Made by a program: the position numbers and the translations under genes
Notes under the pieces: model-generated
What the model saw: the letters and a program-made list of their open reading frames with translations, nothing else
Databases searched by the model: none
Told to the model about the DNA's origin: nothing
Part shown: in pieces, positions 1,841-33,271 of the stretch
How positions within the stretch are numbered: position 1 is the stretch's first letter
How the letters are laid out: each line of letters starts with the position of its first letter
Origin: a virus
Strand: one strand, 5' to 3'
IMG/VR virus record: IMGVR_UViG_3300022689_000074
Coordinates: 1 to 36,133 of that record
DNA length: 36,133 nt

Positions 1841-2776
1841 ATGGATAGAGCAGAGCTACTCATTGAAGAGATCAGATCACAGACTCAGAACACAAGTTAT
1901 GATTCCAACTTTGGTGTTCCTCAAAGTGACATTGTTCGCTATTTAAGGAACGCTCAGGATTTTCTGTTCTCTCAAGCTGTTCAGCAAAAGCCTAAGTTCT
2001 TTCTAGAAGAATACATTGTGGATTGTGTAAACGATCAGGAAGTCTACTCTTTGCCAGAAAGAATCTACCTAGGCAACTTGGAGATGGTTGAATATTCACA
2101 CTCAGGGAATGTCAGGGAATACTATCCCCTAAATGTTTACCAATATATTGAAAGAGATGTGACTCACACTGGCTCACCTTCTGGCTACATAAGACGCAAC
2201 CAGGAGATTCTTCTAGTTCCACCAGCTGCGAGTGGAAAGCTGAGAATCAGCTATATAAAGGAAGCAGACAAAATAGACATCAGGAGAGGTCAGATCTCTG
2301 CAGTTACAGATTCAGGAACACAAGTCACTGCGCTGACTCTAGATACTACAGAGGCCAGCTTTGATTCCACCACATTGAACAAGCATTACAATCTTTGCGT
2401 TGTGGATAGATACGGCAACCAGAAGATGAAAAACATTGAATTTGATTCGATTGATTCAGGAACTGGAGTTGTGACTCTGACTGCCAGCCATACCTATGAG
2501 GATGGAGAAACCATTGCAGTTGGTGATTATGTTGTCTCTGGCAAGAATTCTGCGAATGTCTCTACTCTCCCAGATACTTGTGAAAGATTCCTAATCAAGC
2601 ATTCAGTTTATGAGGTTAAGTTTGGAGACGCTTCTAAGTGGTCAGATAAAGTGAAGAATGATGTATTGGATTTAGCGAATGACATCATAGGTGGTTTTCA
2701 ATCAATAGAAAATGACATTGCCAACATTCCAATCACAGCAACAGACTACCTTGATTGGGGCTATCAGGACGGATAA
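1841..2776 (+). CDS. Head-to-tail adaptor (P22 gp4-like connector)
   Basis: 311 residues. The N-terminal 60 residues are a helical segment of the type seen in podovirus adaptor proteins (IVRYLRNAQDFLFSQAVQQKP), followed by a beta-rich domain with LPERIYLGNLEMVEY and RISYIKEAD, an inserted Thr/Ser/Asp-rich beta domain at about residues 145-235, and a helical C-terminal part. Such proteins form the ring under the portal that joins head to tail. The adaptor assignment rests on this N-terminal pattern and on its place directly before the nozzle gene, whose ATG overlaps its stop by one base. The middle insertion looks like an extra Ig-like domain. P22 gp4 itself is about half this length. Confidence 0.6.
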   Translation: MDRAELLIEEIRSQTQNTSYDSNFGVPQSDIVRYLRNAQDFLFSQAVQQKPKFFLEEYIVDCVNDQEVYSLPERIYLGNLEMVEYSHSGNVREYYPLNVYQYIERDVTHTGSPSGYIRRNQEILLVPPAASGKLRISYIKEADKIDIRRGQISAVTDSGTQVTALTLDTTEASFDSTTLNKHYNLCVVDRYGNQKMKNIEFDSIDSGTGVVTLTASHTYEDGETIAVGDYVVSGKNSANVSTLPDTCERFLIKHSVYEVKFGDASKWSDKVKNDVLDLANDIIGGFQSIENDIANIPITATDYLDWGYQDG

Positions 2777-5700
2777 TGGGCTATAAAAATCTGAAGTATT
2801 ATGACAATCGGGCTGGTGTTGACTCTCGCACAAATGAAGTGAGAAAGCCAGAGGCCTACGCTAGAGACAATGAAAACTCTGTCTATTCAAACAGAGACGA
2901 CATTGAAAAGCGCAGAGGTGGAAAGATCATCTCTGATGATGGCCCTGCATTTGGCAACTTTGTTTTGAGACAGGTTGATCCTGATACTTTGACGAAAATA
3001 GATAAGCCCATTGGAATGAATGAAAATGGCTATTTAATGGAGAGGCAAGATGCGACTCTTAATGTTTCTTACAGTGGTGGAGCTACAGCTTGCCTGGTGC
3101 GCTTTTTTTATGACACTGCAACTGATGAGTTCAGGTTTAGAACATTTGAGGATGGAGTTCAGGATCTTGATATTGCAGTGGGCATTGGAAAAGATGAGGG
3201 CTCTCCAACAGATCTTTCAAGCCTTGCCTCGACTATTGACGGAGATGCAAGCTACACGGCTACGATCACTGGCACTGGTACTATTCCAGCTGCGTATCTG
3301 GAGCTTATAAAAGACCATGACTTGCAATCCTCTGACTTGGCTTTAAAGGCCTATGAGTGGATTAAATGTCACACCTCAATGACAAATGCTGAGGCTACGA
3401 TCACAGAAAGTTCAGCTTCTGGGCTAGTGACAGAGGCTTCTGATAAGATCAACTCAACAGCTCATCCATTTTCTGATCTAGATGTGGTTTTCTACGAGAC
3501 AACAGGCACACCAATTGGAGGGCTTGAGAATCGGCAGATGTATTACGTTAGGAATTCAGGGGCAAATGACTTTGAGCTTTCCTTGATCTTCGATGGAGCT
3601 ATAGTTGATTTAACAGATGATGGAACTGGTGACCACACTTTCACAAAGTGGGATTTTGCAGGGATCAACACCAGGAGGAACAGGGATCAGTCTAGTCTGG
3701 AGCTTGCAAGCTTCACTCAGCTGAATAATGTTTCTTATTTTACTGATGGAGGCTTTCTCTGGAAGTATGATGGCTTGGCGGCTTACAGGGCAGGATTGCC
3801 AGAGCTTGCTGAGAATGGATTGCCTCCAGTAAAGACAGGATCTGGAGGGAGTCTTTCCTCTGGCACCTACCAGTACAGATTTAGATATAAGTACAAAGAC
3901 GCATCTGGGAATATACTTTATTCAGACTATATTGACAGGACAGTTTCTTCAGTGACAGCTGGGGATTCTTTGACATGGAATGGAATGATTCCACTAAGAA
4001 GGGAGCTGATGTTCCCATGCTTTAATGCGAATGCTTCGAGCACTCAGACATCATCTGCAGGATCACAGTGGACCATTAATGTAAGCTCTGGCCATAATCT
4101 TAAGGCTGGCATGATGGCAGTCTTTTGGGATGACATAGGCTTATTCTATGCCGCATTGAAAATTGAGTCAGTGACAGACACTTCAATCACTACAGAAGAT
4201 CCTGGGACTGGCTTGAGGATAAGCACCACAGCATTCACTGGATCTGATAGAATTTTTGGGGGCTTGTTTAGAACTGAGTCTGGAGTTGTAGGGGATGCTA
4301 GAGGAAACGTAGATCCTGGCCCGATGGAAGTTGAAATCTATAGAACAACTGCAGGTGGATCTGTTTTTTATTATGAGGCTTCTGAGTATGTGGCAGATGA
4401 CTCAAATTCAATAAGTCATGAATCAACAATTTCAGATTCTACGCTGCAAGATAATGAGATTTTCTCTGAGAGTGGGATTTTTCCAAAAGAGCCCAAAATT
4501 GCAAAGTACATATCAAACTGGCAGAACCAGTTAGTCCAGGCAGGAAGGCCACCTGAGGATATTGCAAACATCTTTAAAAGATTGATCAAGGCCAACTCAG
4601 CTCCAACTGCAGAGATTGTAGAGGCTGACATTGCTGCGACAGATTTTTTCTACTGGGATGACACTCTCTTTCTAGAAGGCTTCCCCAAGGATGGGCTGCA
4701 TGAGGAATCAGTCTACACCAATAGAGGAGATGACATCACTGGTCTTGCTCCTAACAAGGATGCTTTCTTTGTGTTTAAAGATCAGTCAATGGCTTTAGTG
4801 ACAGGAACACTAGGTCTGAACAATATCCAAAGAGAGATATTGGAGTCTGATAGAGGCTGCATTTCTCACAGTTCAATCAGAGATGTTCAGGGCTCCCTGG
4901 TGTGGCTAGATGCCAACTATGGATTCCAGACAATTGTGGCAGGTCAGCTACCTAAAACAGTTGGAGTTGCGATCAACAACATAGTTAAAGAGAACGCAAG
5001 GTCTGGAGCCACCAGGCTTGTTTTGAACAAAGCTGTAGCAGTGAACTATGAACTAGATGATAAATATATCTGCGCCATACCAGCGGAGTCTGAGAGCAGC
5101 TCAGGAGATCTTTACACAAATGGTAACGCAAAAATTTGTGTTCTCGACTATGCGGAATATGATTTAGATAAGTTTAGAATGGCTTGGCACTACTGGAGCG
5201 GAGTAGATATGTCAGGTGGTCTTTATGTGATAGATAATGAGCTTTTCTGGTCAAGCAGGAGATACAGCTCAGACCTTTCATCTATGAAGTATGAGCACTG
5301 GAAGCAGAGCAATCTAGGAGATGCCTGGGATTACCAGGATCATGACCAGGCAATAGCTTGGAGCTGGTGGACAGCATTTTTTAGAGGTAGCGAGCCAAGC
5401 ATTGATAAGACCTTCAACAATCTGGTTCTGAAGTGTGCCACAGACACATCAAATGAGTCATTTGCAGTTGAGGTTGAGCAGTATGGAAATTATGAGCCAG
5501 ATAGGTTGCTTGGAGAGTATTCCAAGACATTCACCAAGGTTGCACAGTCTATCAAGAAAAACCTCAACTTTCCTCTAGTAAGTCAAAAGCTGGAAAGTAC
5601 CTCATTTAAATTTAAGAACTCACAAGAGCAGACCAATGTGTCAATCAGTGGTTTTGAAGTCTTTATTGAGGGAGAATTTGACACGGAGTACAGATACTAA
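2776..5700 (+). CDS. Tail nozzle / packaged-DNA stabilisation protein (P22 gp10-like, enlarged)
   Basis: 974 residues from ATG 2776, which overlaps the adaptor stop; an upstream in-frame start at 2755 is unnecessary. The opening (KNLKYYDNRAGVDSRTNEVR) and the second half (ISNWQNQLVQAGRP; VFKDQSMALVTGTLG; GCISHSSIRDVQGSLVWLDANYG) are the pattern of the beta-propeller nozzle proteins that close the tail tube in P22-like and T7-like phages. Length is about twice that of P22 gp10. The extra length is largely at about residues 85-300 and 395-510, where Thr/Ser/Gly/Asp-rich beta segments resemble small repeated phage tail domains (for example ENRQMYYVRNSGANDFELS). It acts in the virion tail, holding DNA in until infection. 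The assignment by pattern is fairly firm at fold level. Confidence 0.65.
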   Translation: MGYKNLKYYDNRAGVDSRTNEVRKPEAYARDNENSVYSNRDDIEKRRGGKIISDDGPAFGNFVLRQVDPDTLTKIDKPIGMNENGYLMERQDATLNVSYSGGATACLVRFFYDTATDEFRFRTFEDGVQDLDIAVGIGKDEGSPTDLSSLASTIDGDASYTATITGTGTIPAAYLELIKDHDLQSSDLALKAYEWIKCHTSMTNAEATITESSASGLVTEASDKINSTAHPFSDLDVVFYETTGTPIGGLENRQMYYVRNSGANDFELSLIFDGAIVDLTDDGTGDHTFTKWDFAGINTRRNRDQSSLELASFTQLNNVSYFTDGGFLWKYDGLAAYRAGLPELAENGLPPVKTGSGGSLSSGTYQYRFRYKYKDASGNILYSDYIDRTVSSVTAGDSLTWNGMIPLRRELMFPCFNANASSTQTSSAGSQWTINVSSGHNLKAGMMAVFWDDIGLFYAALKIESVTDTSITTEDPGTGLRISTTAFTGSDRIFGGLFRTESGVVGDARGNVDPGPMEVEIYRTTAGGSVFYYEASEYVADDSNSISHESTISDSTLQDNEIFSESGIFPKEPKIAKYISNWQNQLVQAGRPPEDIANIFKRLIKANSAPTAEIVEADIAATDFFYWDDTLFLEGFPKDGLHEESVYTNRGDDITGLAPNKDAFFVFKDQSMALVTGTLGLNNIQREILESDRGCISHSSIRDVQGSLVWLDANYGFQTIVAGQLPKTVGVAINNIVKENARSGATRLVLNKAVAVNYELDDKYICAIPAESESSSGDLYTNGNAKICVLDYAEYDLDKFRMAWHYWSGVDMSGGLYVIDNELFWSSRRYSSDLSSMKYEHWKQSNLGDAWDYQDHDQAIAWSWWTAFFRGSEPSIDKTFNNLVLKCATDTSNESFAVEVEQYGNYEPDRLLGEYSKTFTKVAQSIKKNLNFPLVSQKLESTSFKFKNSQEQTNVSISGFEVFIEGEFDTEYRY

Positions 5701-6903: not shown

Positions 6904-8222
6904 TGCAATTACTAGACTTTTTAAATCAAAACTCTCTAGAACCTATTCCTTTAAGACAAAGGAAATATTTGGATCGTAATATCACACCAATCCCTGGGAA
7001 AATAGGTGGCGTTGGCCAGCCTATTCAAGACAAGGGAATCCAATCCAAAGCCAACTCAGAAGGCACAAAAAAGCTTGTGATTGATGAGACTGCAGCTCAG
7101 GCTGAGGATCTTCAGAAAACAATCGAGGAAGTTCAGGCTGGTGCAGAGGATAACTTTGGATCTATTGAAAGAACTAGCCCAATGTCGATCCAGGAAAGAT
7201 TGGCGATGGCGAACCCAGCTCCTACAAATAAAGAGCTTATAGGCCAGGCACTTATTACCTTTCTTCCAACTCTTCTAGGTCAAGCCTTTGGTGGCGAGCT
7301 TGGAGGCATTGCAGGTGCAAAGGCTGGAGAAGGTGCTCTGAAATACAAGCTCAAATCAGACGCAGAATCTGCAAAGGCAAAAAAGGCAGGGATTCTTTCT
7401 GAGTACAAGATCAGAGGACAGCTGGAAGATAAGGCTGCAGAGGATAGATATAGAGAGACAGATACTCAGCTGAAGATCGCTGACCTAAAGCTTAAACTGG
7501 GCGGCAAGCTTTCTAAAGATATGCTAGACAGAATTGAAAAGGCTGAGGCCAGAGGTGACAGTAATGAGTTGAAAGCATTGATTGCTGCCTTAGCCGCAAA
7601 TGTCTCTCAACAGAATGCTGACACGGGCGCAAAAAAGGCAGCCAAAGATGACGAAGAAAACCAGGGAAGATGGATTCCTGGCTGGAAGCATGACAAAAGC
7701 GTGAGAATCATCAAGTCTGAGATGGATAACATGAGAGATGCGGCAGGGGATGCAGAGAAGCTTGAGGAGCTTTTAAGTTCAATCGGTGGCATGGTTAAAG
7801 GTGCAGGAAGATTTGAGCTTGCCAATCCTTTGAGTGATGTTCGCAAGAGGCTTGATCCTATCGTAAGACAAGCACAGCTCCTCTACAAAGGTGATGCTTT
7901 CGCAAAACTCGGAGTCCTTACTGGTCCAGATCTAGAGCTGGTTGAAAATGTGATTGATAATCCTCAGTCTGCTAGAAACCTTATAAGAGGTGGCGAGAGT
8001 GCTGCAGACGTTTACGCAAGAGCTGCCCAGTCAGTTAGAAGATCAATTGAATCTACCTTAGGCAAGAGAGGCTTTGCAAGAGAAGATGGATCTATGACTG
8101 AAAGGCTTGATGCTCCTGAGAAATCAAGTGTGCAAGCTCCACCAAATGGATTGCCTCTTGAGGTCAATCGAGGTGGTGCAAGGTTTAGGTGGAATGGCTC
8201 CAGCTATGTAGAGGTGCAATAA
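6903..8222 (+). CDS. Internal virion / DNA ejection-type protein
   Basis: 439 residues. Disordered N-terminal third, then a hydrophobic Gly/Ala-rich segment at about residues 112-145 (LITFLPTLLGQAFGGELGGIAGAKAG) that could insert in a membrane. A long charged helical stretch with Lys/Glu/Asp repeats runs to about residue 330, followed by a C-terminal section containing GVLTGPDLELVENVIDNPQS. This architecture, with a possible membrane-inserting patch flanked by long helices, fits proteins ejected with the DNA to form a channel through the envelope. It is the middle gene of three tightly joined genes (TAATG overlaps at both ends). Specific homology cannot be claimed. Confidence 0.55.
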   Translation: MQLLDFLNQNSLEPIPLRQRKYLDRNITPIPGKIGGVGQPIQDKGIQSKANSEGTKKLVIDETAAQAEDLQKTIEEVQAGAEDNFGSIERTSPMSIQERLAMANPAPTNKELIGQALITFLPTLLGQAFGGELGGIAGAKAGEGALKYKLKSDAESAKAKKAGILSEYKIRGQLEDKAAEDRYRETDTQLKIADLKLKLGGKLSKDMLDRIEKAEARGDSNELKALIAALAANVSQQNADTGAKKAAKDDEENQGRWIPGWKHDKSVRIIKSEMDNMRDAAGDAEKLEELLSSIGGMVKGAGRFELANPLSDVRKRLDPIVRQAQLLYKGDAFAKLGVLTGPDLELVENVIDNPQSARNLIRGGESAADVYARAAQSVRRSIESTLGKRGFAREDGSMTERLDAPEKSSVQAPPNGLPLEVNRGGARFRWNGSSYVEVQ

Positions 8223-10459
8223 TGGGAATCAGTGCAGAGCAAATGGCGAAGGAATTAGAAGCAGGAAAAGCAAAGGCTGTTGAGCTATCTCCAGAAGAGG
8301 TGGCTCAAATGCTTAAAAGCGGAGAAGCATCTCCTGTTGAGGAAGAGGGATTCTGGTCAGGGCTTTTAGGTGGTGCTGCAGAGCTTGCTGGTGAAGTGGG
8401 AGAGGCTGTTGATTCTTTCACTGGTGTTCCTACCAGGGAGGCAATGGCTGAATACTACAAAGGCGGTGATGTTGGTGACATTGCTGGAGAGTTTTTTTCT
8501 AGTATGGGCCAAGATCCAAAGAGTGCCACAACTCCAGATCAGCTTGCAGAATTGCAAGGCTTTGAGGATAAGCCTCCAGAAATCCTAGAAAAGATAAATC
8601 AAGGATCTGGTGGAAGATATACAAATCCAAAGACAGGAGCCACAGTAAGCCTTTTGCAAAAGGATCAGACAACTGCCAAAGATGTTGCCTCTGGTGTGAA
8701 TGCATTCGCTGCAGATTGGACAAATGTCGTTCCTATGACTGCAGCTTTGAAGCTTCTGGGTAAAGGTGCTGGAGCAACTGCAAAGGGAGTTGCTAAGGTC
8801 ATGACAAAAGCTCCAGCCAAGGCAATAGATGCTGGGACTGGGACATCAATCACAGGAGATGTGGTTGATTATGGTTGGGACATGGCTCAGAGAACAGCTG
8901 ACGATCTATCAAAGATAGTAAACCCATTGCCAGCTGATGACTACGAGAGTTTCATGAGGATAGCCATAGAAAACAACATAGACACAAAGCTGCTTCCAGA
9001 GTCTGTGAAATATGGCCCAAATAGCTTCCTAAGTCGTGCTGCTAGATCTCAAGCTGAGGGTCCTGGTGGTGAAATAGCTATGAAAAATTTTGAGGCTGGT
9101 CTAGATCAAGTTAGAGAAGCCACGATAAAAAAAATGCAAGACTTTAATCAGGGATTTATTCCAGACGATGTTCAAGCTGGTGAAGTCATCAAGTCTGGCT
9201 TCGATAATGCTGTAGAGAGGCTGTTTCAGCAAAATGATATCACTTACAGCACTATTCATGAGATAGCTCCTGGGATTCAGTTGACTGAGAAAGCCTATGA
9301 CAAGCTAGACAGTGCGTTGAATGGTCTAGAAAAGAAAGCAATGGGATTGCTCTCAAGAGGAGTGACTCAAACAGAAAAGAGCCAGGGCCAGCAACTACTG
9401 AAAGCCATTGATGCTATTAGAGCAGCTGACAGCTCTATAAAGCAGAATGTAGAGGCTTTGCAGATGATTGGCCGCCATGCCTTTAAGACATCAAAGCAAG
9501 CCCTCTCAGATGTTCCTGTGGACCAGAAGGCCTTTAGGAAAATGTATGATGATCTAAGAGAAGCTGTTGTTGATTCAACTAGAGCGCAGCTTGGCGATGA
9601 TATAGCAGACTCACTGGTTGAGAATAACGCTAGAATGAGCAAGTTCTTTGATGACTCTAAAATGATTCAGAAGATCATTCAGAATGAGGCCAAAGCTCCT
9701 GAGCAGATTTTCCAGAGCCTGATATTGCGCGGAAATACAAACACTGTTAAAGCTCTCAGGGAGTTGCTAACACCAGAAGAGATTGGATCTCTAAAGTCAG
9801 CTTTCATGGGATCTCTAGTCAAGGTTAATCCACAGGATGACTTTCCATTTAGATCTCTTTGGAACGCTTTAAGGAATAAGAAGAATGTCGCAAAGGAACT
9901 ATTTGAACCACAGGAACTCAAGCAAATCAGTGAGCTTCTGCAGCTTGGTGATCGCTTCGGCAATCCGGTTCTTTCGTCATCGGGGACTGGTGGTTCTAAC
10001 AAGTTTATGGATCTCATTAAAGGTGTTGGCGATTATTTCACGAATGACATTGTAATCAATGTACTAAAACGGCAAGGCATGAAGGCTGAGGAAGCCCAGG
10101 CATTTGTGAAGGCAAATCCAGAATGGTACCAAAGAGCCTATTCTGAACTATCGAAAACAGTAAACCCTATACAATCTCAAACACCAGCGCAGCTTGGCTT
10201 AAAAGGTCTGCAGACAGGATCAGCCATGAGTATTCCTCAGACCATGTCTCCAGATGAAGCTGTCCAATTGATGCTAAATCCTGAATCAGCTCCAAGAGAA
10301 ACAATTGGTGGCTATCCTAAGCAGAGCACTCAAGAGGTTCCAGTGGAGCTGTTCGATCAGATAGAAGAGGACATAGACAAGCTAGATATTTCAAACACTG
10401 AAAAGGCAAAAAGACTGAACCTTCTCAATAAGCATGGAAGAGTGTATCTAGGAAACTAA
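8222..10459 (+). CDS. Large internal virion / ejection-type protein
   Basis: 745 residues from ATG 8222, which overlaps the upstream stop; an in-frame start at 8189 would run back into the preceding gene. Features: an N-terminal Glu-rich helix repeat (residues 1-40), a Gly/Ala hydrophobic patch (GLLGGAAELAGEVGEAV, about 48-64), a second Ala/Gly/Lys-rich amphipathic patch (about 170-205), then several hundred residues of predominantly helical sequence. It is the third and largest of the ejection-type set. No clear lytic transglycosylase or protease motif is visible. Its last codons already lie within the first 11-bp repeat of the following promoter (10454-10464). Confidence 0.6.
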   Translation: MGISAEQMAKELEAGKAKAVELSPEEVAQMLKSGEASPVEEEGFWSGLLGGAAELAGEVGEAVDSFTGVPTREAMAEYYKGGDVGDIAGEFFSSMGQDPKSATTPDQLAELQGFEDKPPEILEKINQGSGGRYTNPKTGATVSLLQKDQTTAKDVASGVNAFAADWTNVVPMTAALKLLGKGAGATAKGVAKVMTKAPAKAIDAGTGTSITGDVVDYGWDMAQRTADDLSKIVNPLPADDYESFMRIAIENNIDTKLLPESVKYGPNSFLSRAARSQAEGPGGEIAMKNFEAGLDQVREATIKKMQDFNQGFIPDDVQAGEVIKSGFDNAVERLFQQNDITYSTIHEIAPGIQLTEKAYDKLDSALNGLEKKAMGLLSRGVTQTEKSQGQQLLKAIDAIRAADSSIKQNVEALQMIGRHAFKTSKQALSDVPVDQKAFRKMYDDLREAVVDSTRAQLGDDIADSLVENNARMSKFFDDSKMIQKIIQNEAKAPEQIFQSLILRGNTNTVKALRELLTPEEIGSLKSAFMGSLVKVNPQDDFPFRSLWNALRNKKNVAKELFEPQELKQISELLQLGDRFGNPVLSSSGTGGSNKFMDLIKGVGDYFTNDIVINVLKRQGMKAEEAQAFVKANPEWYQRAYSELSKTVNPIQSQTPAQLGLKGLQTGSAMSIPQTMSPDEAVQLMLNPESAPRETIGGYPKQSTQEVPVELFDQIEEDIDKLDISNTEKAKRLNLLNKHGRVYLGN

Positions 10460-10486
10460 AGTTCAACTAAAGCTCACCTATAATCG
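10454..10486 (+). promoter_or_regulatory. Promoter made of three 11-bp tandem units (site A)
   Basis: Three contiguous 11-bp units: AACTAAAGTTC (10454-10464), AACTAAAGCTC (10465-10475), ACCTATAATCG (10476-10486). The third contains a perfect TATAAT (10479-10484). The -35 position, 17 bases upstream, is CTAAAG, not TTGACA. The predicted start of transcription is near 10491. The same unit recurs at 25375-25407 and on the minus strand at 27091-27134. I infer a regulator-dependent promoter driving the operon with the lipoprotein and endolysin. An alternative reading is a flagellar-sigma-type promoter (TAAAGTTC, 11 bases, ACCTATAA). Confidence 0.6.
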
Positions 10487-10500
10487 GACTATAGGAAAAT

Positions 10501-10554: not shown

Positions 10555-10854
10555 ATGGAAAAAATTTCTATCCAGGTAGAAGTCGCAAAAGAAACTCACG
10601 AACTAGGCAAGGGTCTTGTGGCCATGCTTGCTGCAGTTCTAGAGGCTAACAAGGACGGTTGGCAAATGGGCCAAGATCTTCCACAGGTTGCAATGGTTGC
10701 TTTTCAGCAAATGGCAGCTGTAGAGGGGATTGATAAGATCAAGGGTGAAATGGAAGAAGATCCTGCAGCTTTTGGTAAGGCTCTAGCACTTAGCATTTCT
10801 GATGCTTATGGTGCTGTGAAAGCAGCTGAAGTAGAGCAAGAGGGGGCTGAATAA
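10555..10854 (+). CDS. Hypothetical helical protein, first gene of lysis-associated operon
   Basis: 99 residues with Shine-Dalgarno AGAGGGG at 10541-10547. Predominantly helical, acidic at the C terminus, with MLAAVLEANKDGWQMGQDLPQVAMVAFQQMAAV at about residues 24-56. The hydrophobic residues are spaced as in an amphipathic helix, not as a membrane span. No recognised family. It is the first gene behind promoter A and a leader hairpin and overlaps the next gene by one base, so it belongs with the lipoprotein and amidase operon. It could be a virion or lysis-timing protein; there is no direct evidence. Confidence 0.65.
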   Translation: MEKISIQVEVAKETHELGKGLVAMLAAVLEANKDGWQMGQDLPQVAMVAFQQMAAVEGIDKIKGEMEEDPAAFGKALALSISDAYGAVKAAEVEQEGAE

Positions 10855-11345
10855 TGTTGGTTCAAAACATGGATATAGCTGGTCTGATCAGACGAGTAAG
10901 AAGAATGAGAGAAGAAATCAGAAAATGTGTTTCAGCAAGTTTGATGCACACAACTGACAGAGATCAAGAAAGAATTGGAACTTATCTTGATTCACTTGAT
11001 GCTTATTTTGACTGGATGGTTGCACAGCCTCAACAGGACTTTGTTGAGTGGCACCCTACAGACATTGATCTTGGTGAGGCTCCAATGGACAACCTGCCAG
11101 AGAACGAGGCATTGGCTGACATGACTCAACAGTTCTTTGCATTGGAAGAGGAGCTTGCTTATTCAGCTTCATCGCGTATGCACACAAGCATCATGGAGCA
11201 TGATGAAAGACGTTTCAGAGAAATCACACAAAAGATTCGTGATTTTCTTGAGCAATACATTTCAAGCATTCAGCCTTTGGATATGCCTGAGAGTAGTCCA
11301 AGACGAGAAATGACAGGCAAGGGAAGAAGAACTGTAAAGGCATAA
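10854..11345 (+). CDS. Hypothetical protein, second gene of lysis-associated operon
   Basis: 163 residues. Basic N-terminal helix (LIRRVRRMREEIRK), a middle section DFVEWHPTDIDLGEAPMDNLPENEALADM, and a long charged C-terminal helix, ending in a basic tail RREMTGKGRRTVKA. No membrane segment, signal peptide or catalytic motif is visible, and the family is not recognised. ATG 10854 overlaps the preceding stop by one base, and the lipoprotein gene starts one base after its own stop. Soluble and probably cytoplasmic. Confidence 0.65.
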   Translation: MLVQNMDIAGLIRRVRRMREEIRKCVSASLMHTTDRDQERIGTYLDSLDAYFDWMVAQPQQDFVEWHPTDIDLGEAPMDNLPENEALADMTQQFFALEEELAYSASSRMHTSIMEHDERRFREITQKIRDFLEQYISSIQPLDMPESSPRREMTGKGRRTVKA

Positions 11346-11346
11346 A

Positions 11347-12093
11347 TTGATACGAATTTTACTATTCATTTTAATGTTTTCAGTCTTGGGGTGTTCAACA
11401 CTCCAAGGCTTCTTTTTTCCTCAAGTAGCTGACAAAGATGCTTCAGTTGCCTGGGAGAAAGATCTCAAAATGAAGGTCAATGGGAAGCTCTACTATGGGA
11501 CTGCGGTAGTTCCCAAGGCAGATGTCTATACCATTTCAATCTATCCAGCCTACAAAGAGATCGACAGACTACAGTGGAGAACTTGCCACCGTGGAGGCCA
11601 TGCAGACCAGGCTGTTGAGCATGGATTCTGGCCCTGGTCCAAGCGTCAGAAATATTTCACTTTCAAAATCAGGCCTAAAGACATTGAAAGAGAGAGGGCT
11701 TGTGCTCTCAAGATTGAGGCCTTGGCAAAAAGACATAAATCAATGGCTTTCGGAATGATTGCCTTCCCAGATATCAGGCCCTGGTACAACATCAGCTCAA
11801 CAGTTGAGTGCAATGGAAAGCTTGGAATCTATACTCAAGGCACATCACTCTGTCAGGCACCTTTTAAATCAATCCAGAGGATCTCATTTTCAGGAGAGGT
11901 TTACATGGATGACAAGGCAAATTCTTTTTGCCCACCGTTTAAGGAAATCGAGCAGGGAGTCTTTGAGTTCTTCATGCCTAAGAATGAGTGCATTTATAAC
12001 TTTGTGAAAGCAGAGGAACATTCTTCTGGAAGGCTTAGGAGTCATAAGTTCATTACTTTCGGCTATGAGAAAACACCACCACCAGAGGACTAA
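11347..12093 (+). CDS. Phage-encoded lipoprotein, cysteine-rich
   Basis: 248 residues starting at TTG 11347 (AAAGG at 11336-11340). Residues 1-15 form a lipoprotein signal peptide followed by the lipobox V-L-G-C, with the lipidated cysteine at 16. The mature part contains six or more further cysteines (in WRTCH, ERACA, VECNG, SLCQA, SFCPP and NECIY), which could form disulphides in the periplasm. It also has two Trp/Arg-rich segments. It is much larger than Rz1-type spanin lipoproteins, and its family is not recognised. Position directly before the amidase suggests a role at the outer membrane during lysis, or superinfection exclusion or surface alteration of the host. Choosing between these needs experiment. 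Confidence 0.75.
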   Translation: MIRILLFILMFSVLGCSTLQGFFFPQVADKDASVAWEKDLKMKVNGKLYYGTAVVPKADVYTISIYPAYKEIDRLQWRTCHRGGHADQAVEHGFWPWSKRQKYFTFKIRPKDIERERACALKIEALAKRHKSMAFGMIAFPDIRPWYNISSTVECNGKLGIYTQGTSLCQAPFKSIQRISFSGEVYMDDKANSFCPPFKEIEQGVFEFFMPKNECIYNFVKAEEHSSGRLRSHKFITFGYEKTPPPED

Positions 12094-12107
12094 CAGGAGA
12101 ACGCATC

Positions 12108-12980
12108 ATGCTTTATCTAGATATATTCATGTGGCTTGGAAAGGCCCTTTTCAGCTTTTTTGGAGCGAAGAAAGAGCAAATGATATGGCTTCAAAACACT
12201 GCAGATGAGTTGCACAGAAGGGGATGGCTAAGGGAAGAAATGATCCTAACCTTAGATGCTGCTCAACAAAAGAGACTGAATGCCAGAGTGAGAGCGATCA
12301 TGAAGGAAAAGGATAAGAATAGAGAGCCTGAAAGACCTTCTGATGGGGATGGAAAAAGATTTGATTACAAGATCCCTGAAATAGTTGAAGTTGATTGTTC
12401 AATGGAAACCAAGGGCGAGTATAGAACGCCCTCAGGGGAAGCCAGGGGGCTTGTGGTTCACTTTACAGCTGGGCGCAATGAGAATGGTGCAGCTGATGGG
12501 ATCAATGGAGTAAAGGGTCTGGCTGCGCGTGGACTGGGCTGTATGTTTATGGATTATGATGGAGTCATCTATAAATCCAAAGATCAGAAGCTCAATCAAG
12601 TTGCCTATCATGCTGGGTCTTCTCAGTGGAAGGGTAAAAAGGGAGTTTCTCTTTACTGTATGGGGATGGAGATTTGCTGCCCTGGTAAGGTCAATGAAAA
12701 TGGTCAGTCCTGGTTTGGAAAGGCCTATCCTCTTCAAGACACAAGGTTGATCGAAGAGAAGACAGACAACATTAAAAAAGGCCGTTATGTGAAGTTCTCG
12801 GAGGCCCAGGAGCATAGCCTTGTAAACTTCATATTGTGGCAAATGGATGTAAACCCAGAGTTTTCCCTTGATTGGGTAGTTGGCCATGACGAGATTGCAC
12901 CTTCCAGGAAGTCAGATCCAGGAGGTTCTTTGAGCGTCTCAATGCCAAGGTTCCGATCATATTTGAAATCATTACTCTAA
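12108..12980 (+). CDS. N-acetylmuramoyl-L-alanine amidase endolysin with N-terminal hydrophobic anchor
   Basis: 290 residues with AGGAG eight bases before ATG. Residues about 1-20 are hydrophobic (MLYLDIFMWLGKALFSFFGA), like a signal-anchor-release segment. Residues 21-110 are a charged linker, and the catalytic amidase_2 domain follows. Visible catalytic features are H118 in VVHFTAG, AYHAG (H168), GMEICCPG (E188), and VGHDEIAPSRKSDPGG with H260, K268 and D270. In this family the two histidines and the third residue bind zinc and the lysine assists catalysis. It cuts the bond between muramic acid and the peptide stem of peptidoglycan. An N-terminal anchor would allow export without a classic holin. 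Terminator follows. Confidence 0.88.
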   Translation: MLYLDIFMWLGKALFSFFGAKKEQMIWLQNTADELHRRGWLREEMILTLDAAQQKRLNARVRAIMKEKDKNREPERPSDGDGKRFDYKIPEIVEVDCSMETKGEYRTPSGEARGLVVHFTAGRNENGAADGINGVKGLAARGLGCMFMDYDGVIYKSKDQKLNQVAYHAGSSQWKGKKGVSLYCMGMEICCPGKVNENGQSWFGKAYPLQDTRLIEEKTDNIKKGRYVKFSEAQEHSLVNFILWQMDVNPEFSLDWVVGHDEIAPSRKSDPGGSLSVSMPRFRSYLKSLL

Positions 12981-13084: not shown

Positions 13085-13294
13085 ATGGTGCCAAATTCAA
13101 ACCGAGATATTTATAGTAGGGTGGAGGCAGAAGCCAAAATATTCACTAATTACTTGAGAGGTGTTTCTTTTTATCTTGGGGCAAAACCTGAAAAGCTTCC
13201 AGAATCCTATCGCGGAGCTTTGATTCAGCAATTGACAGAAAACTCTCATCGGCAGTTAAAACAAAAAGGGCGACAGCTTGCCTTAGTGGAGTAG
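13085..13294 (+). CDS. Small hypothetical protein overlapping the repressor gene on the other strand
   Basis: 69 residues if started at ATG 13085, with GAGGGG at 13076-13081; GTG 13088 has the better spacing from it. The protein is basic, mostly helical (RVEAEAKIFTNYLRGVSFYLG, then PESYRGALIQQLTENSHRQLKQKGRQL). No family is recognised. It runs head-on into the minus-strand repressor gene, sharing 149 bp. Overlap on this scale is unusual, so one of the two reading frames may be shorter in reality. The clear Shine-Dalgarno and upstream palindrome favour it being expressed. Confidence 0.5.
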   Translation: MVPNSNRDIYSRVEAEAKIFTNYLRGVSFYLGAKPEKLPESYRGALIQQLTENSHRQLKQKGRQLALVE

Positions 13295-13679
13295 ATCCCT
13301 CATAAGCAGCCACCAGTGGCCTATTCTTTAACACCTCGGACTGAAGCTGATTGATTTGAGCCTGGAAGGGCTTGGACAAGTCAAGGCCCAAGTCTTCCTG
13401 CACTCCGTTCAAGATATCCATTAAACGTCTATAATCATTCTGAATTTGCTTTAAATCAGGCCCATTTTCTTCAGACTGTTGCTTGGATCCGATTGTAAAA
13501 TATTCCAGCTCCCTATGTAGAATTTTTGCTATTTCTTTAAGCTTTGATGGCCTGGGCTGGACTTTCTCGCTTTCCCACCTAGACACGGTTCCTGGCTCAA
13601 TGCCAAGCTTTTCTGCAAACTGAGCTTGCGTCAATCCGTTCTCAATTCTTGCCTTCTTTATTTGTCTTCCAATATTCAT
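13146..13679 (-). CDS. Phage repressor-like regulator, XRE-type HTH
   Basis: 177 residues from ATG at 13679 (minus strand), with GAGGAAG just upstream; a TTG four codons earlier is less likely. Residues about 3-57 are a classic XRE/Cro-CI helix-turn-helix (IGRQIKKARIENGLTQAQFAEKLGIEP then GTVSRWESEKVQPRP). The rest is a helical C-terminal domain with no visible Ser-Lys autoprotease motif of LexA/CI type, so induction by RecA cleavage is not evident. It is divergent from the early operon across a 220-base region packed with GCAAT repeats, the expected place for its operators. I infer it is the lysogeny repressor. Its 3' end overlaps the small plus-strand gene. Confidence 0.75.
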   Translation of the reverse strand: MNIGRQIKKARIENGLTQAQFAEKLGIEPGTVSRWESEKVQPRPSKLKEIAKILHRELEYFTIGSKQQSEENGPDLKQIQNDYRRLMDILNGVQEDLGLDLSKPFQAQINQLQSEVLKNRPLVAAYEGSTPLRQAVALFVLTADESFLSIAESKLRDRILEAFQVLPQDKKKHLSSN

Positions 13680-13761
13680 CTGCTTCCTCAAGCCTACTTA
13701 TGCCTTATTGAAAGTTACCTGAAAATGGCTAAATAATGCACTATATTGCTTGCAATTTGAT

Positions 13762-13789
13762 TTGACTCAGCACCAGAGTGCAATAGTAT
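13762..13789 (+). promoter_or_regulatory. Candidate rightward early promoter
   Basis: TTGACT (13762-13767), a 16-base spacer and TAGTAT (13784-13789) form a reasonable sigma70-type promoter pointing to the exonuclease operon. The -10 lies inside the first repeat of the phased GCAAT array (13780 onward), so binding of a regulator there would block it. Start of transcription expected near 13796. A possible opposite -10, TATAGT, lies on the minus strand at 13738-13743 for the repressor, without a convincing -35. Confidence 0.5.
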
Positions 13790-13850
13790 GCAACAAGACA
13801 CAATAAGATGCATTGCTTACGCAATAAAAGGCAATATTAAGCAATTTTGT
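13780..13850. repeat. Seven GCAAT-like pentamers at 10-bp spacing (operator or iteron array)
   Basis: GCAAT 13780, GCAAC 13790, ACAAT 13800, GCATT 13810, GCAAT 13821, GCAAT 13831, GCAAT 13841: one per helical turn over about 65 bp. On the minus strand this contains TTGC-N6-TTGC twice or more, the spacing of lambda CII sites. Superimposed are inverted repeats ATTGC-TTAC-GCAAT (13812-13825) and ATTGC-TT-GCAAT (13745-13756). The location between divergent repressor and early operon indicates an operator region, inferred. Confidence 0.65.
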
Positions 13851-20326: not shown

Positions 20327-20683
20327 ATGAGATCCAAAATAGAAATGCAACAAGTCCTTATCAACTTTGACAAGCAGATCACAGACATGGTGGGGGCCAA
20401 GTTAGACTTGCGAGAATGGCTTCTCCAGCGCGTTGAGGATAAAATACAGCAAAAGATACTCCAAGCCTTTGACGGAGTCTTCACGGGGCTCTCAGTGCGT
20501 GAGCTGGAAATGGCCAAAGAACTACTCAAAGACAAGAAAGCCTGGACAATCGCTGTAAAACCAGAACCTGCCAAAAAGAAAACTAAGTCTAACAAGCGGC
20601 CTGTGCAGTCAAAGAGGAAGTCAAATAAAACTACAAAGCCAACTAAAGGTAATCTAACAGGAGGGAAGGAAGCTGATGCCTGA
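20327..20683 (+). CDS. Small protein with strongly basic tail
   Basis: 118 residues from ATG 20327 with AAAGGGG at 20315-20321; a frame open from 20267 overlaps the nuclease gene. The N-terminal 75 residues are helical and mixed charge (LREWLLQRVEDKIQQKILQAF). The last 40 are Lys/Thr/Ser-rich and highly basic (KKKTKSNKRPVQSKRKSNK), suited to binding DNA or RNA. No family is recognised. It overlaps the next gene by eight bases. Confidence 0.65.
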   Translation: MRSKIEMQQVLINFDKQITDMVGAKLDLREWLLQRVEDKIQQKILQAFDGVFTGLSVRELEMAKELLKDKKAWTIAVKPEPAKKKTKSNKRPVQSKRKSNKTTKPTKGNLTGGKEADA

Positions 20684-24121: not shown

Positions 24122-24347
24122 GCTCAGTCTTATGCTCTGGTAAATCCACCAGCGAGCTTTCATCAACCAAGTTCTCATAAAAAAAATTCTGCATGATCTG
24201 AATTATATCAGTTGCATTCAAAGCATCATCAGAGTGGATCTCTATTTCAAACCCTTTACAGCCAGGCTTTATGGTCATCTCTACAGTGTAGCCAGGCTCA
24301 TCTGAAAACCTTAGAGACGCTTCTTTGGGCTGCCTTTGGGCTTCCAT
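24117..24347 (-). CDS. Hypothetical protein, third gene of leftward operon
   Basis: 76 residues, ATG at 24347 preceded on its strand by AAAGGT. Beta-strand rich (GYTVEMTIKPGCKGFEIEIHSDD), then a helix ATDIIQIMQNFFYENL. It overlaps the upstream gene of the same strand by 37 bases. No family recognised; possibly a small regulator or accessory to the phosphoesterase operon. Confidence 0.55.
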   Translation of the reverse strand: MEAQRQPKEASLRFSDEPGYTVEMTIKPGCKGFEIEIHSDDALNATDIIQIMQNFFYENLVDESSLVDLPEHKTEQ

Positions 24348-24571
24348 TGGATTACCTTTCTGGATTTTATTGCAACCTTAGGAATCTGGATTCTTCCATT
24401 GGCTGAGTCATTGGCCTGATCTATTGAGTGGGCAATCATTATAAAGTCTTCCGATTCTTTGACGAGAAAGCCAAGAGTGATGCAGCTCTCATGCTCTATT
24501 TCAGAATCCTTTATCTTCTCCCAGCCATGATCTGAGGCTGAGTCTATCCATTCAACCAGTAAAGCCTTCAT
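24311..24571 (-). CDS. Small conserved-looking phage protein, second gene of leftward operon
   Basis: 86 residues, ATG at 24571 overlapping the phosphoesterase stop (ATGA). The pattern LVEWIDSASDHGWEKIKDSE, CITLGFLVKESEDFIMIAHSIDQ, GRIQIPKVAIKSRKVI recurs in small phage proteins of unknown function, with a beta-barrel-like alternation. Its role is not known. Transcription is leftward, opposite to all neighbours except the RHH gene and the repressor. Confidence 0.6.
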   Translation of the reverse strand: MKALLVEWIDSASDHGWEKIKDSEIEHESCITLGFLVKESEDFIMIAHSIDQANDSANGRIQIPKVAIKSRKVIQWKPKGSPKKRL

Positions 24572-25329
24572 GCCTTAAACCTCTTGCCACCAAAGACGCA
24601 AGTATAGTCATCAAGGATCTGAGTTGGGTTTGTGTAGAAGTATTTTGTCTTTGGATCGACATAGACAATATCAAAACCAAGCTGCCATTGATGATGTGAC
24701 TTTACATAGCCATAGATTTTAGGAAAAATCCGATGCCCACCAAGATAGCCTGGTGAATAAACAATATGATCAGAACCATCCATTCCGACAATGTGTGAGA
24801 ACTCTCTTGTGTGTTTGTGGCCATAGACGAGGCTACAGAGTGCCTTTCTTGCTGTTGCCTGAGGAGATGCCATAGAAAACGGTTCGTGTCTCGCATAGAG
24901 CTTGCTCCCTAGTATCTGATACTTTTGTGAAGGGCCATAAGGAACCCAGGTCCACCGAGGCCTTTGATGTAGGTTGAACAATGTTAGACAGTCCACCAGG
25001 CCATAGAGTGCTGGAGCCTGGTCTTGCAAGTATCTTTCTAGACGGAACTCATGGTTCCCTTGAATGTAGACCTTCCTTGCATCAGGGAAAACCTCATCAA
25101 TCTCAGTCAGTGCCTCATTCACAGAAACCAACTCTTTATCAAGCATTGATGGGAGGGTGGGATCTTTCTTGTGACTAGAGACAGAAAAGAAGTCTGCGTA
25201 GTCGCCTAGGATGCACACCTCAGAAATTTTCTGGGTGGACGCAACCTCAAGCATCAAGTTGTAGGCCTTTCGATCTACCCAAGGGAAATGACAATCAGGA
25301 ATGATGAGGCTTGCCTTAAGGTTGCTCAT
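24568..25329 (-). CDS. Calcineurin-like metallophosphoesterase
   Basis: 253 residues, ATG at 25329. Metal-binding motifs of the superfamily are all present: D12-x-H14 (PDCHFP), GDYADF with D43, GNHEF with N92-H93, a histidine at 148, and GHKHT with H171 and H173. Two metal ions are expected, acting on phosphomonoesters, diesters or nucleotides; the substrate is unknown. It is the first gene of a leftward operon with promoter B upstream, and has no clear Shine-Dalgarno. Phage enzymes of this superfamily may degrade signalling nucleotides or process nucleic acid ends. A moron-like location between the packaging genes suggests an accessory or host-directed function. Confidence 0.85.
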   Translation of the reverse strand: MSNLKASLIIPDCHFPWVDRKAYNLMLEVASTQKISEVCILGDYADFFSVSSHKKDPTLPSMLDKELVSVNEALTEIDEVFPDARKVYIQGNHEFRLERYLQDQAPALYGLVDCLTLFNLHQRPRWTWVPYGPSQKYQILGSKLYARHEPFSMASPQATARKALCSLVYGHKHTREFSHIVGMDGSDHIVYSPGYLGGHRIFPKIYGYVKSHHQWQLGFDIVYVDPKTKYFYTNPTQILDDYTCVFGGKRFKA

Positions 25330-25374: not shown

Positions 25375-25407
25375 ACCTAAAGTTCAACTATAGGTCAACT
25401 TTAAGCG
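25375..25407. promoter_or_regulatory. 11-bp-repeat promoter region between phosphoesterase and terminase (site B)
   Basis: Plus strand units: ACCTAAAGTTC (25375-25385), AACTATAGGTC (25386-25396), AACTTTAAGCG (25397-25407). Read rightward, CTAAAG, 17 bases and TTTAAG lie in the same register as at site A. Read leftward, TATAGT (25392 to 25387) follows AAAGTTGACC. The site is nearly palindromic, so both the terminase and the phosphoesterase operon can be driven or repressed from it. A perfect TTGACA at 25359-25364 lacks a matching -10. Confidence 0.5.
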
Positions 25408-25433: not shown

Positions 25434-26834
25434 ATGTTAGCTACAGAAGATGAAATCCTGACATATTACACTGAAGTCATCGAGAGGCTTCATGAGAGTT
25501 GGACTCCACATGAGGGCCAGCTCCCTATAGGGCAAGCTCTCTTTGGTGATGAGATCCGTGAGATCTTTCTAGAGTGCGGCAGAAACTTTGGAAAAACTGA
25601 GTTCATTGATTATGCTGTATGGAGAAATGCTCAGACAAGGCCTGGCTCTACCAACTACATTTTCTACCCATTACTGAAGCAAGCCAAAGAGGTGATCTGG
25701 AAGTCAAAGAGAGTGCTGGAGTTTGGGCCATCAGATTGGATTGCTGGCACCAATGACACTGAGCTTAGGATCACATTAAAGAATGGCTCTTTCATCAAGC
25801 TAGACGGATCTGACAACACTGAGAGCTATAGAGGAGTGAAGATCAAGAATGGCTCCCTGGTGGTCATGGATGAGTTCAAGGATTTTAAGCCAGAGTTCTA
25901 TGAAGCCATTGAGCCCAACTTTATTGATGCCTATGTGCTGATAGCAGGAACACCTCCAGAAAGGGATGACTGCCAGTTTATAGAGGTGGCTGATGAATTC
26001 CAAAAGAACCCAAAGAAAAGACATTTCAACAGGAGCTGCTTCGATAATCCCCACATCTCAAGAGACTTTCTCTACTCAAAAAGAGATGAGCTTTACTTAA
26101 AAGGTGATGGGGAAATATGGGAGCGTGAATATTTAGCCAAAAGAGTCCAAGGTGGAAAGAGGAGTATATTCCCAATGATATCGAGCTTTGAAACTACAAA
26201 CCACAGAAACCTTATCAGGGAAATTGCTAGAGATAAATCAAGCCTGGAATGGTACATCATAGCAGATCCAGGGAGTGCAACTTGCTTTGCACAGATGTTT
26301 GTGGCCATAAATCCCTACACAAAAATGATCTACATTCTTGATGAGATTTATGAGACTGATGCAAATGAAACCTCTGTAGGCAAGATAGGAAGACGCATGA
26401 TTGAAAAGAGGAATGAATTCTATGAGCACAAAGAGGCTTGGGATCTTGGCCATGATGAGGCAGCGAAGTGGTATGAGAATGAGTTGTTCGATCAGTTCAA
26501 GATAGATTCCCAGGGCGTTAAAAAGAAAGAGGCAGACAAAGAGACTGGCCTTTCACTCATCAAAGACATATTTATCGAGGGAAAAATCAAGATATCAGAC
26601 AGATGCACAAACCTGCTTAGTGAGATGAGAAACTATGTGAAGGATCGCAATGGCAGGATTCCAAAAGAAAATGATCATTTAATAGACTGCTTCAGATATT
26701 TGTTGATCTTCTCTGGCTACAACTTAAACAAAACGGAGCAGCCAGTCCCAGAAAAGGACAGAGAGGACTTTAGAGCAGAGCCTCTAGAGTTTAATGGTGA
26801 CGATCCTTACAGAGAGCTTACAGACGACTATTAG
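25434..26834 (+). CDS. terL: Terminase large subunit
   Basis: 466 residues from ATG 25434, the first sensible start after promoter B; a frame open from TTG 25359 runs through the promoter. No Shine-Dalgarno is evident. The ATPase domain has Walker A CGRNFGKT (48-55) and Walker B VVMDE (143-147). The RNase H-like nuclease domain has D278 in IIADPGS, ILDE near residue 302, and NDHLIDCF with D418. It pumps DNA into the procapsid and cuts it. Convergent with the RHH gene, sharing three bases with its stop. Confidence 0.88.
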   Translation: MLATEDEILTYYTEVIERLHESWTPHEGQLPIGQALFGDEIREIFLECGRNFGKTEFIDYAVWRNAQTRPGSTNYIFYPLLKQAKEVIWKSKRVLEFGPSDWIAGTNDTELRITLKNGSFIKLDGSDNTESYRGVKIKNGSLVVMDEFKDFKPEFYEAIEPNFIDAYVLIAGTPPERDDCQFIEVADEFQKNPKKRHFNRSCFDNPHISRDFLYSKRDELYLKGDGEIWEREYLAKRVQGGKRSIFPMISSFETTNHRNLIREIARDKSSLEWYIIADPGSATCFAQMFVAINPYTKMIYILDEIYETDANETSVGKIGRRMIEKRNEFYEHKEAWDLGHDEAAKWYENELFDQFKIDSQGVKKKEADKETGLSLIKDIFIEGKIKISDRCTNLLSEMRNYVKDRNGRIPKENDHLIDCFRYLLIFSGYNLNKTEQPVPEKDREDFRAEPLEFNGDDPYRELTDDY

Positions 26835-27090: not shown

Positions 27091-27134
27091 GAAATATAGT
27101 TCAGCTTTAGTTTACCTTTAGTTGGTTTTAGCCG
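27091..27134 (-). promoter_or_regulatory. Divergent promoter with four 11-bp units (site C)
   Basis: On the minus strand, reading toward the RHH gene: CGGCTAAAACC (27134-27124), AACTAAAGGTA (27123-27113), AACTAAAGCTG (27112-27102), AACTATATTTC (27101-27091). The last unit holds TATATT (27098 to 27093), 17 bases from CTAAAG. On the plus strand a TATAGT (27095-27100) overlaps it, facing the portal operon. Start of the RHH transcript is expected near 27086. Confidence 0.6.
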
Positions 27135-27146
27135 TAGCGTCTGCTC

Positions 27147-27365
27147 ATGGGAATAATCGACATCATAACAATATCTATGGCAGCGACTTGTCTTTTTGTT
27201 TCACTCTTGACAGCTGGCTTATGCGCTTTCTGTTTGATCGAATACAAGTCATTCAAAAAATCAACTCATTCCATTCAATATGTGCCTGTGGAGCCTGGTG
27301 ATTCAGGACTCTCTGAAAAACAGATGAATGATTTTGACTCCAATCCTTATGAGGAAGAATTATGA
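27147..27365 (+). CDS. Small membrane protein before the portal gene
   Basis: 72 residues. Residues about 5-33 are hydrophobic (IITISMAATCLFVSLLTAGLCAFCLIE), one probable membrane span. The rest is polar with a proline- and acid-rich tail. No Shine-Dalgarno is clear. A possible holin-like protein given the missing holin, but its size and place are also consistent with an unknown head-operon protein. The ATGA overlap with the portal gene ties it to the head operon. Confidence 0.6.
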   Translation: MGIIDIITISMAATCLFVSLLTAGLCAFCLIEYKSFKKSTHSIQYVPVEPGDSGLSEKQMNDFDSNPYEEEL

Positions 27366-32551: not shown

Positions 32552-33271
32552 ATGGCAGCACCTAAGGGATGGCCAACTCAAGAAAAGGATTCTGGCTTTG
32601 TGGGAGAGTTTTCCACAGTTGAGCCTGTAAGACAGAAGCAGTATGGCTTATCTGTTTTAGCCCATCAATATGTCAACAATGTTGGCTCTGATATTGTCGA
32701 GGCTGGATCAACCACCACAGTAATAAATGCCACAGGTCATGCAGTGAAAAAGGGAGATGTGATCTCTTTTTCTTCTGGCAACCTGAATGGCCAGGAAGTC
32801 AAAGTCTACAGTGTTGAAGCTAACAGAATTACGGTTGCTGAGGTTTTACCAGAGGCCCCTGCTACTTCAGACACTTTTGACATTCTAAGGCACAAATATC
32901 CTAGAGTGAACTCTGTAGGTGTTCCGTCGATCTCAATTGCTCCATTGGCTATTGTGGACTTCATCGACACTTCAGTTGGACCAGTCATTGAGACAAGCAC
33001 AGATGCCATTCCTGCAAGTGGAGGAACTCCTCTGACAATTGTTTCATCATTAGCGGCAGACGTTTCAAAAATACGAGTAGCAGACACGACAGGGCTTTTT
33101 ATTGGACTGTATTCAGATCCTTCTGGAACACCAGTCCTGGAAGCCATCATCAATCCAGGGCTTGACGACTATATAGAAATCTCACTTTCGAGCGGTGAAG
33201 AGTTGGGCCTTAGAGCAATAGAAAATACAGCAATATCCGTGGGGCAAGTATGTTTGCAATTTTTAGGGTAA
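32552..33271 (+). CDS. Virion structural protein, beta-rich
   Basis: 239 residues with GAGGGG before ATG 32552. The sequence is rich in Ser, Thr, Val and Gly with repeated strands (TTTVINATGHAVKKGDVISFSSGNLNGQEVKVYSV, ISIAPLAIVDFIDTSVGP). It ends within the tail-fibre gene, overlapping it by 22 bases. It is likely a head-completion, decoration or fibre-attachment protein. The family is not identified. Confidence 0.6.
   Translation: MAAPKGWPTQEKDSGFVGEFSTVEPVRQKQYGLSVLAHQYVNNVGSDIVEAGSTTTVINATGHAVKKGDVISFSSGNLNGQEVKVYSVEANRITVAEVLPEAPATSDTFDILRHKYPRVNSVGVPSISIAPLAIVDFIDTSVGPVIETSTDAIPASGGTPLTIVSSLAADVSKIRVADTTGLFIGLYSDPSGTPVLEAIINPGLDDYIEISLSSGEELGLRAIENTAISVGQVCLQFLG

Follow-up and report, generated by a model that had tools for sequence, protein, structure and literature searches.

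Among the described systems closest to the one reported here, the Arc repressor of phage P22 contacts DNA through two dimers placed in neighbouring major grooves (PMC12645479), and its operator, Oarc, occupies the 17-bp spacer between a TTGACA and a TATATT element. F55, a ribbon-helix-helix (RHH) protein of the virus SSV1, recognises two tandem repeats with the 11-bp consensus ATAGATAGAGT at several promoters of the virus, its own among them; the RHH protein SvtR of SIRV1 represses a structural gene as well as the gene that encodes it, which is thought to avert premature expression (PMC5569661). RelB RHH dimers bind abutting (pseudo)palindromic 12-bp half-sites on one face of the DNA (PMC2812701). 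Here, we describe three arrays of tandem 11-bp units in a temperate phage genome that appear to combine operator and core promoter in a comparable manner.

The stretch of DNA analysed (hereafter the window) is an entire IMG/VR record of 36,133 bases, representing a tailed, temperate phage. Its genes include those for a P22-type portal, a terminase and an integrase, and it also encodes an exonuclease VIII-like nuclease, a DnaB-like helicase, a CI-like repressor, and an amidase endolysin. Searches of the window for RNA families and tRNAs found neither. Open reading frames at 1-315 and 33250-36132 run off the two record ends, and might together form a single gene if the genome is circular or permuted.

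Tandem units in exact 11-bp register were found on the plus strand at 10454-10486 and 25375-25407, and on the minus strand, at the places given in an earlier note on this DNA. Array 1 comprises AACTAAAGTTC, AACTAAAGCTC and ACCTATAATCG, followed by a fourth in-register unit overlooked in that note, GACTATAGGAA (10487-10497), such that the array extends over 10454-10497. Array 2 (25375-25407, plus strand) comprises ACCTAAAGTTC, AACTATAGGTC and AACTTTAAGCG, and array 3 (27091-27123, minus strand) comprises AACTAAAGGTA, AACTAAAGCTG and AACTATATTTC. Four units had been claimed for the latter, of which three are in register; the supposed additional unit, CGGCTAAAACC (27134-27124), matches the consensus at 2/9 positions, with a CTAAAA that is one base off. 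As previously described, each array also holds elements resembling those of a core promoter, comprising a -35-like CTAAAG (10456-10461, 25377-25382 and 27121-27116 in arrays 1 to 3, respectively), a 17-bp spacer, and a -10-like hexamer reading TATAAT in array 1 (10479-10484), TTTAAG in array 2 (25400-25405), and TATATT in array 3 (27098-27093).

Across the ten units a consensus of A(A/C)CTAWAGKT was derived, in which C3, T4 and A7 are invariant and units 1 and 2 of the arrays are the best conserved. Since A1-T10, C3-G8 and T4-A7 are complementary, each unit forms a partial dyad of approximately 10 bp repeated every 11 bp, a symmetry likewise missed in the earlier note; these pairs, present in most units, amount to only 3/5 of a full dyad. 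The arrays contain at least two (pseudo)dyad sites spaced about one helical turn apart, as expected of operators in RHH (MetJ/Arc/CopG) systems, the dyad being partial. These units span the region from -35 to -10, and in array 1 reach to about +6. G8 is kept in 7/7 of the other units and lost in 3/3 of those that supply the -10 element (replaced by A, A and T), a pattern with a permutation probability of 1/120 in a post hoc test picked with the data in view. On this post hoc comparison, the third unit may have given up G8 to reconcile its roles as operator and -10 element.

The arrays are real and lie well past chance expectation. Scoring of adjacent unit pairs identified four positions in the window scoring at least 16/18, where 500 dinucleotide shuffles averaged 0.002 such positions and never reached 17; for three units, scores of at least 22 occurred twice in the window and never in shuffles. 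Enrichment over shuffled sequence, which the earlier note had proposed as a check, is therefore borne out for tandem units, and is confined to them, as single units were found 15 times versus 11.4 expected. Lest the motif be fitted to the answer, a 22-mer from the start of array 1 served as the only probe, and after array 1 itself it best matched arrays 2 and 3 (19/22 each); among 300 shuffles the best match reached at most 18 and the second-best at most 16. Unit pairs were also concentrated at a spacing of 11 (five pairs), with one or two pairs at each other spacing. A further, weaker series within coding sequence at about 20626-20660 did not hold up, scoring 14/18, a level expected by chance about 0.6 times per genome.

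The position of each array before a gene on its own strand further distinguishes these loci. The stop codon of the preceding gene (8189-10459) overlaps array 1, which, fourth unit included, stops some 57 bases short of the first gene of a lysis-associated operon (10555-12980, plus strand), whose genes encode proteins of 99, 163 and 248 aa without assigned function, and which includes the 290-aa amidase endolysin (12108-12980, plus strand). Array 2 lies between a divergently oriented metallophosphoesterase gene (24568-25329, minus strand) and the terminase large subunit gene (25434-26834, plus strand), ending about 26 bases before its ATG at 25434. Array 3 ends about 44-45 bp before P0001 (26831-27046, minus strand), which encodes a 71-aa candidate regulator with an RHH-like pattern, and is divergent from P0002, encoding a small membrane-type protein, and the portal gene (together 27147-29521, plus strand). 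These settings agree with those first described: before the lysis operon, between phosphoesterase and terminase, and beside the portal operon. All three arrays are intergenic, with a gene start on their own strand 15-110 bp downstream, a placement shared by only 1.8% of position and strand combinations.

From this placement, together with the sequence features above, it is likely that the arrays are combined promoters and operators. Spacing is 17 bp throughout, where a sigma-70 promoter would have 16-18 bp, and CTAAAG matches TTGACA at only 2/6 positions; a simple sigma-70 consensus scan of the window found promoters no commoner than in shuffles, and none at the arrays. Given such a poor -35 element and the weak -10 TTTAAG, it is uncertain whether the arrays would act as promoters unaided, which leaves room for an activator or for weak promoters. 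Array 2 would be the putative promoter of the terminase gene, and as terminase and portal genes are co-directional in relatives, it may also drive the structural operon.

Relatives were gathered through terminase and capsid searches, yielding about 155 contigs. The array motif was found in none of these, of which few hold all three equivalent loci; many are partial, which seldom allowed a check of the lysis locus. This argues against a family-wide signal, which the earlier note had expected to recur at equivalent loci, and leaves a signal private to one lineage unaffected. In most relatives, the terminase gene is co-directional with a small membrane gene, followed by the portal gene. The window differs in that two reversed blocks interrupt this run, the phosphoesterase pair upstream of terminase and P0001 downstream; L158 and L092 have the phosphoesterase homologue on the same strand as terminase, and in the window phosphoesterase and an 86-aa neighbour are both reversed (24311-25329). 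The closest relative, L092 (52% identity for terminase, 51% for portal, and 69% for capsid), is the only relative with an RHH-like gene in the slot equivalent to P0001, encoding a 68-aa protein on the reverse strand; no array was found beside it. A candidate array upstream of the portal gene in L004 and L005 (13/18) was rejected, being part of the coding sequence for the P0002 homologue, with no RHH-like gene at that locus. Searches for tandem 10-12 bp arrays in the intergenic regions of relatives revealed a few, unrelated to those of the window, and among intergenic sequences L045 carries near-perfect tandem repeats of TTGTCCGTTT and TTTATGTCCGT (2905-2955). The terminase reading frame of L095 (795 aa; 2767-5154) has homology in two blocks about 950 bases apart, and looks like an intein insertion. 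A search of genome contigs returned no matches for terminase, and two metagenome-assembled genome (MAG) contigs for capsid.

With array 3 in the position of its promoter, P0001 is the obvious candidate for the regulator. Its sequence pattern (EPLTLWVEP, a helix, a short turn VSSAE, and a second helix) resembles RHH proteins, and two AlphaFold models place an extended segment (strand-like at residues 20-28) before helices at 29-42 and 46-64, the helices having pLDDT values of 82-86. Against an RHH profile built here P0001 scored -1.1 bits, on par with shuffled sequence; it had no match in Pfam, PHROG, NCBIfam or PDB, no homologue among viral contigs, phages or plasmids, and no significant pairwise similarity to Arc or Mnt, and Foldseek with a single-sequence model gave no usable match. 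The 68-aa protein of L092 ranked fifth against the same type of profile among several thousand background reading frames, at just 6.5 bits, and shares 24% identity with P0001 over the expected core, which is not significant by shuffling. RHH membership of P0001, which neither profile, PDB nor Foldseek searches bore out, is plausible from its sequence pattern and modelled helices. We consider it moderately likely that P0001 is the protein that reads the arrays.

Our best explanation overall, which we would call an even bet, is that the arrays are three operators through which P0001 represses late genes and its own gene. A small dimeric regulator would bind each 11-bp unit of these operators merged with core promoters, with cooperative binding between neighbouring dimers that occupy the same side of the DNA at a distance of roughly one helical turn. 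Like Arc, bound dimers may then keep RNA polymerase off the promoter or prevent the promoter from opening. With P0001 as regulator, array 3 would be its own promoter, resulting in negative autoregulation, and the late regulon would comprise packaging and structural genes expressed from array 2 and lysis genes expressed from array 1. Late genes would thus be held off until P0001 levels fall, or until replicated DNA titrates P0001 through its sites.

The same operators could instead be read by another phage- or host-encoded regulator, a reading we regard as unlikely, if still worth weighing. No profile or PDB match marks P0001 as a DNA-binding protein, and the phage encodes many small early proteins without assigned function; yet the location of array 3 is just that expected for autoregulation of P0001, and a host protein is not expected to yield a motif restricted to one phage. 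Furthermore, the only recognisable repressor in the window, the CI-like HTH_3 protein (13146-13691, minus strand), has different repeats at its own promoter region. Dense repeats of the GCAATAnnAnGCAA type (about 13732-13848, in 10-bp steps at 13816-13845) lie between its gene and the exonuclease gene, and are likely CI operators. No AACTAAAG arrays were found in this region, where sites of the same type would be expected for CI-type operators, and arrays 1-3 were consequently rejected as CI sites.

Compared with repression by P0001, it is also rather improbable that P0001 or another phage regulator acts as an activator, recruiting RNA polymerase from units 1 and 2, over the missing -35, to a promoter with a -10 element only and turning late genes on. 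Although the occurrence of CTAAAG, so far from TTGACA, at the -35 position of all three arrays suggests activator dependence, and it is units 1 and 2 that are best conserved, a protein on unit 3 (and also unit 4 in array 1) would cover the -10 element and beyond the start, obstructing transcription. Moreover, P22 Oarc and the SSV1 F55 sites, which are found at similar positions, are repressor sites. Repression is more likely than activation.

Database searches bear on a third alternative, that the arrays are packaging or DNA-end signals, as in repeat arrays beside the terminase genes of T7-like phages. A degenerate 29-mer covering all three arrays gave exactly three matches in the window and none in 100 shuffles, with a single match in the rest of IMG/VR (L008); a reversed control matched neither the window nor IMG/VR. 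Because this search may omit records very near the window, close kin sharing the arrays may exist. Within IMG/VR, three-unit AACTAWAG loci in 11-bp register were T7-like in 7/7 cases, 46-750 bp 3' of the terminase gene (one of the seven, L012, being counted by an array identical to that of L006). These phages, L006-L012, carry AACTATAGnTn arrays downstream of terminase (e.g. L008:9678-9706, L007:2439-2467 and L006:5036-5064). Their units (CTAAAG/CTATAG) are very similar to those described here, some members share the 11-bp register, and the terminase gene of the window is flanked by two of its arrays. Unlike the arrays of the window, those of T7-like phages are found downstream of terminase near genome ends, with no link to lysis or repressor genes, and in T7 the CTAAAG repeats of the left end are spaced by 13 bp. 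The window phage, with its P22-type portal and integrase, is not T7-like, and its remaining array, array 1, is located 15 kb away before lysis genes; we therefore take T7-like arrays to be a separate kind. A packaging role would also leave the -10 drift and the placement before gene starts unexplained, and we consider it very improbable. Finally, chance or low-complexity repeats, with which the lack of single-unit enrichment would agree, have a negligible claim, since placement is specific and the best tandem pair and triplet scores were never reached in 500 shuffles.

Taken together, the proposal of the earlier note that operator repeats and core promoter are fused in a phage-specific signal gains support from IMG/VR specificity, same-strand placement, and loss of G8 in -10 units, but not from conservation. 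A more specific version, to which we would give little credence at present, is that an orphan helix-helix protein unrelated to known regulators reads the promoter-merged 11-bp sites as a one-protein late switch, the signal being private to its lineage through fast turnover while the nearest relative retains the gene slot. Equally tentatively, one sequence would then set the control of packaging, lysis and P0001 itself, whether by repression or activation. To our knowledge, the timing of late-gene expression is not known for most uncultivated phages. If correct, the reading presented here would provide a testable regulon of three promoters and one small protein from sequence alone, place an architecture of the Arc/F55 type in the service of the late genes of a bacterial temperate phage, beside an unrelated CI, and suggest that such signals are lineage-private and escape conservation-based searches.

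Among the systems introduced above, the SvtR site differs from the arrays in lying about 80 nt from promoter elements as an imperfect inverted repeat. The relO operator of RelB has 12-bp half-sites, in contrast to the 11-bp units of the window, and controls a toxin-antitoxin operon with a co-repressor. F55, as the lysogeny regulator of an archaeal virus, acts on BRE/TATA promoters and immediate-early targets through a motif unlike that of the window. The 21-bp Arc operator in Pant/Pmnt fills a 17-bp spacer between -35 and -10 elements, a geometry it shares with the arrays, and as proposed for P0001, Arc is a small phage repressor whose gene adjoins its operator. Arc differs in reading TAGA-box half-sites at one operator beside an antirepressor gene, as opposed to direct repeats of 11 bp at putative late promoters in three separate places. 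By this analogy, the arrays look like a private late-gene regulon built along the lines of the P22 Arc operator, an additional instance of an established architecture, for which P0001 is the candidate regulator.
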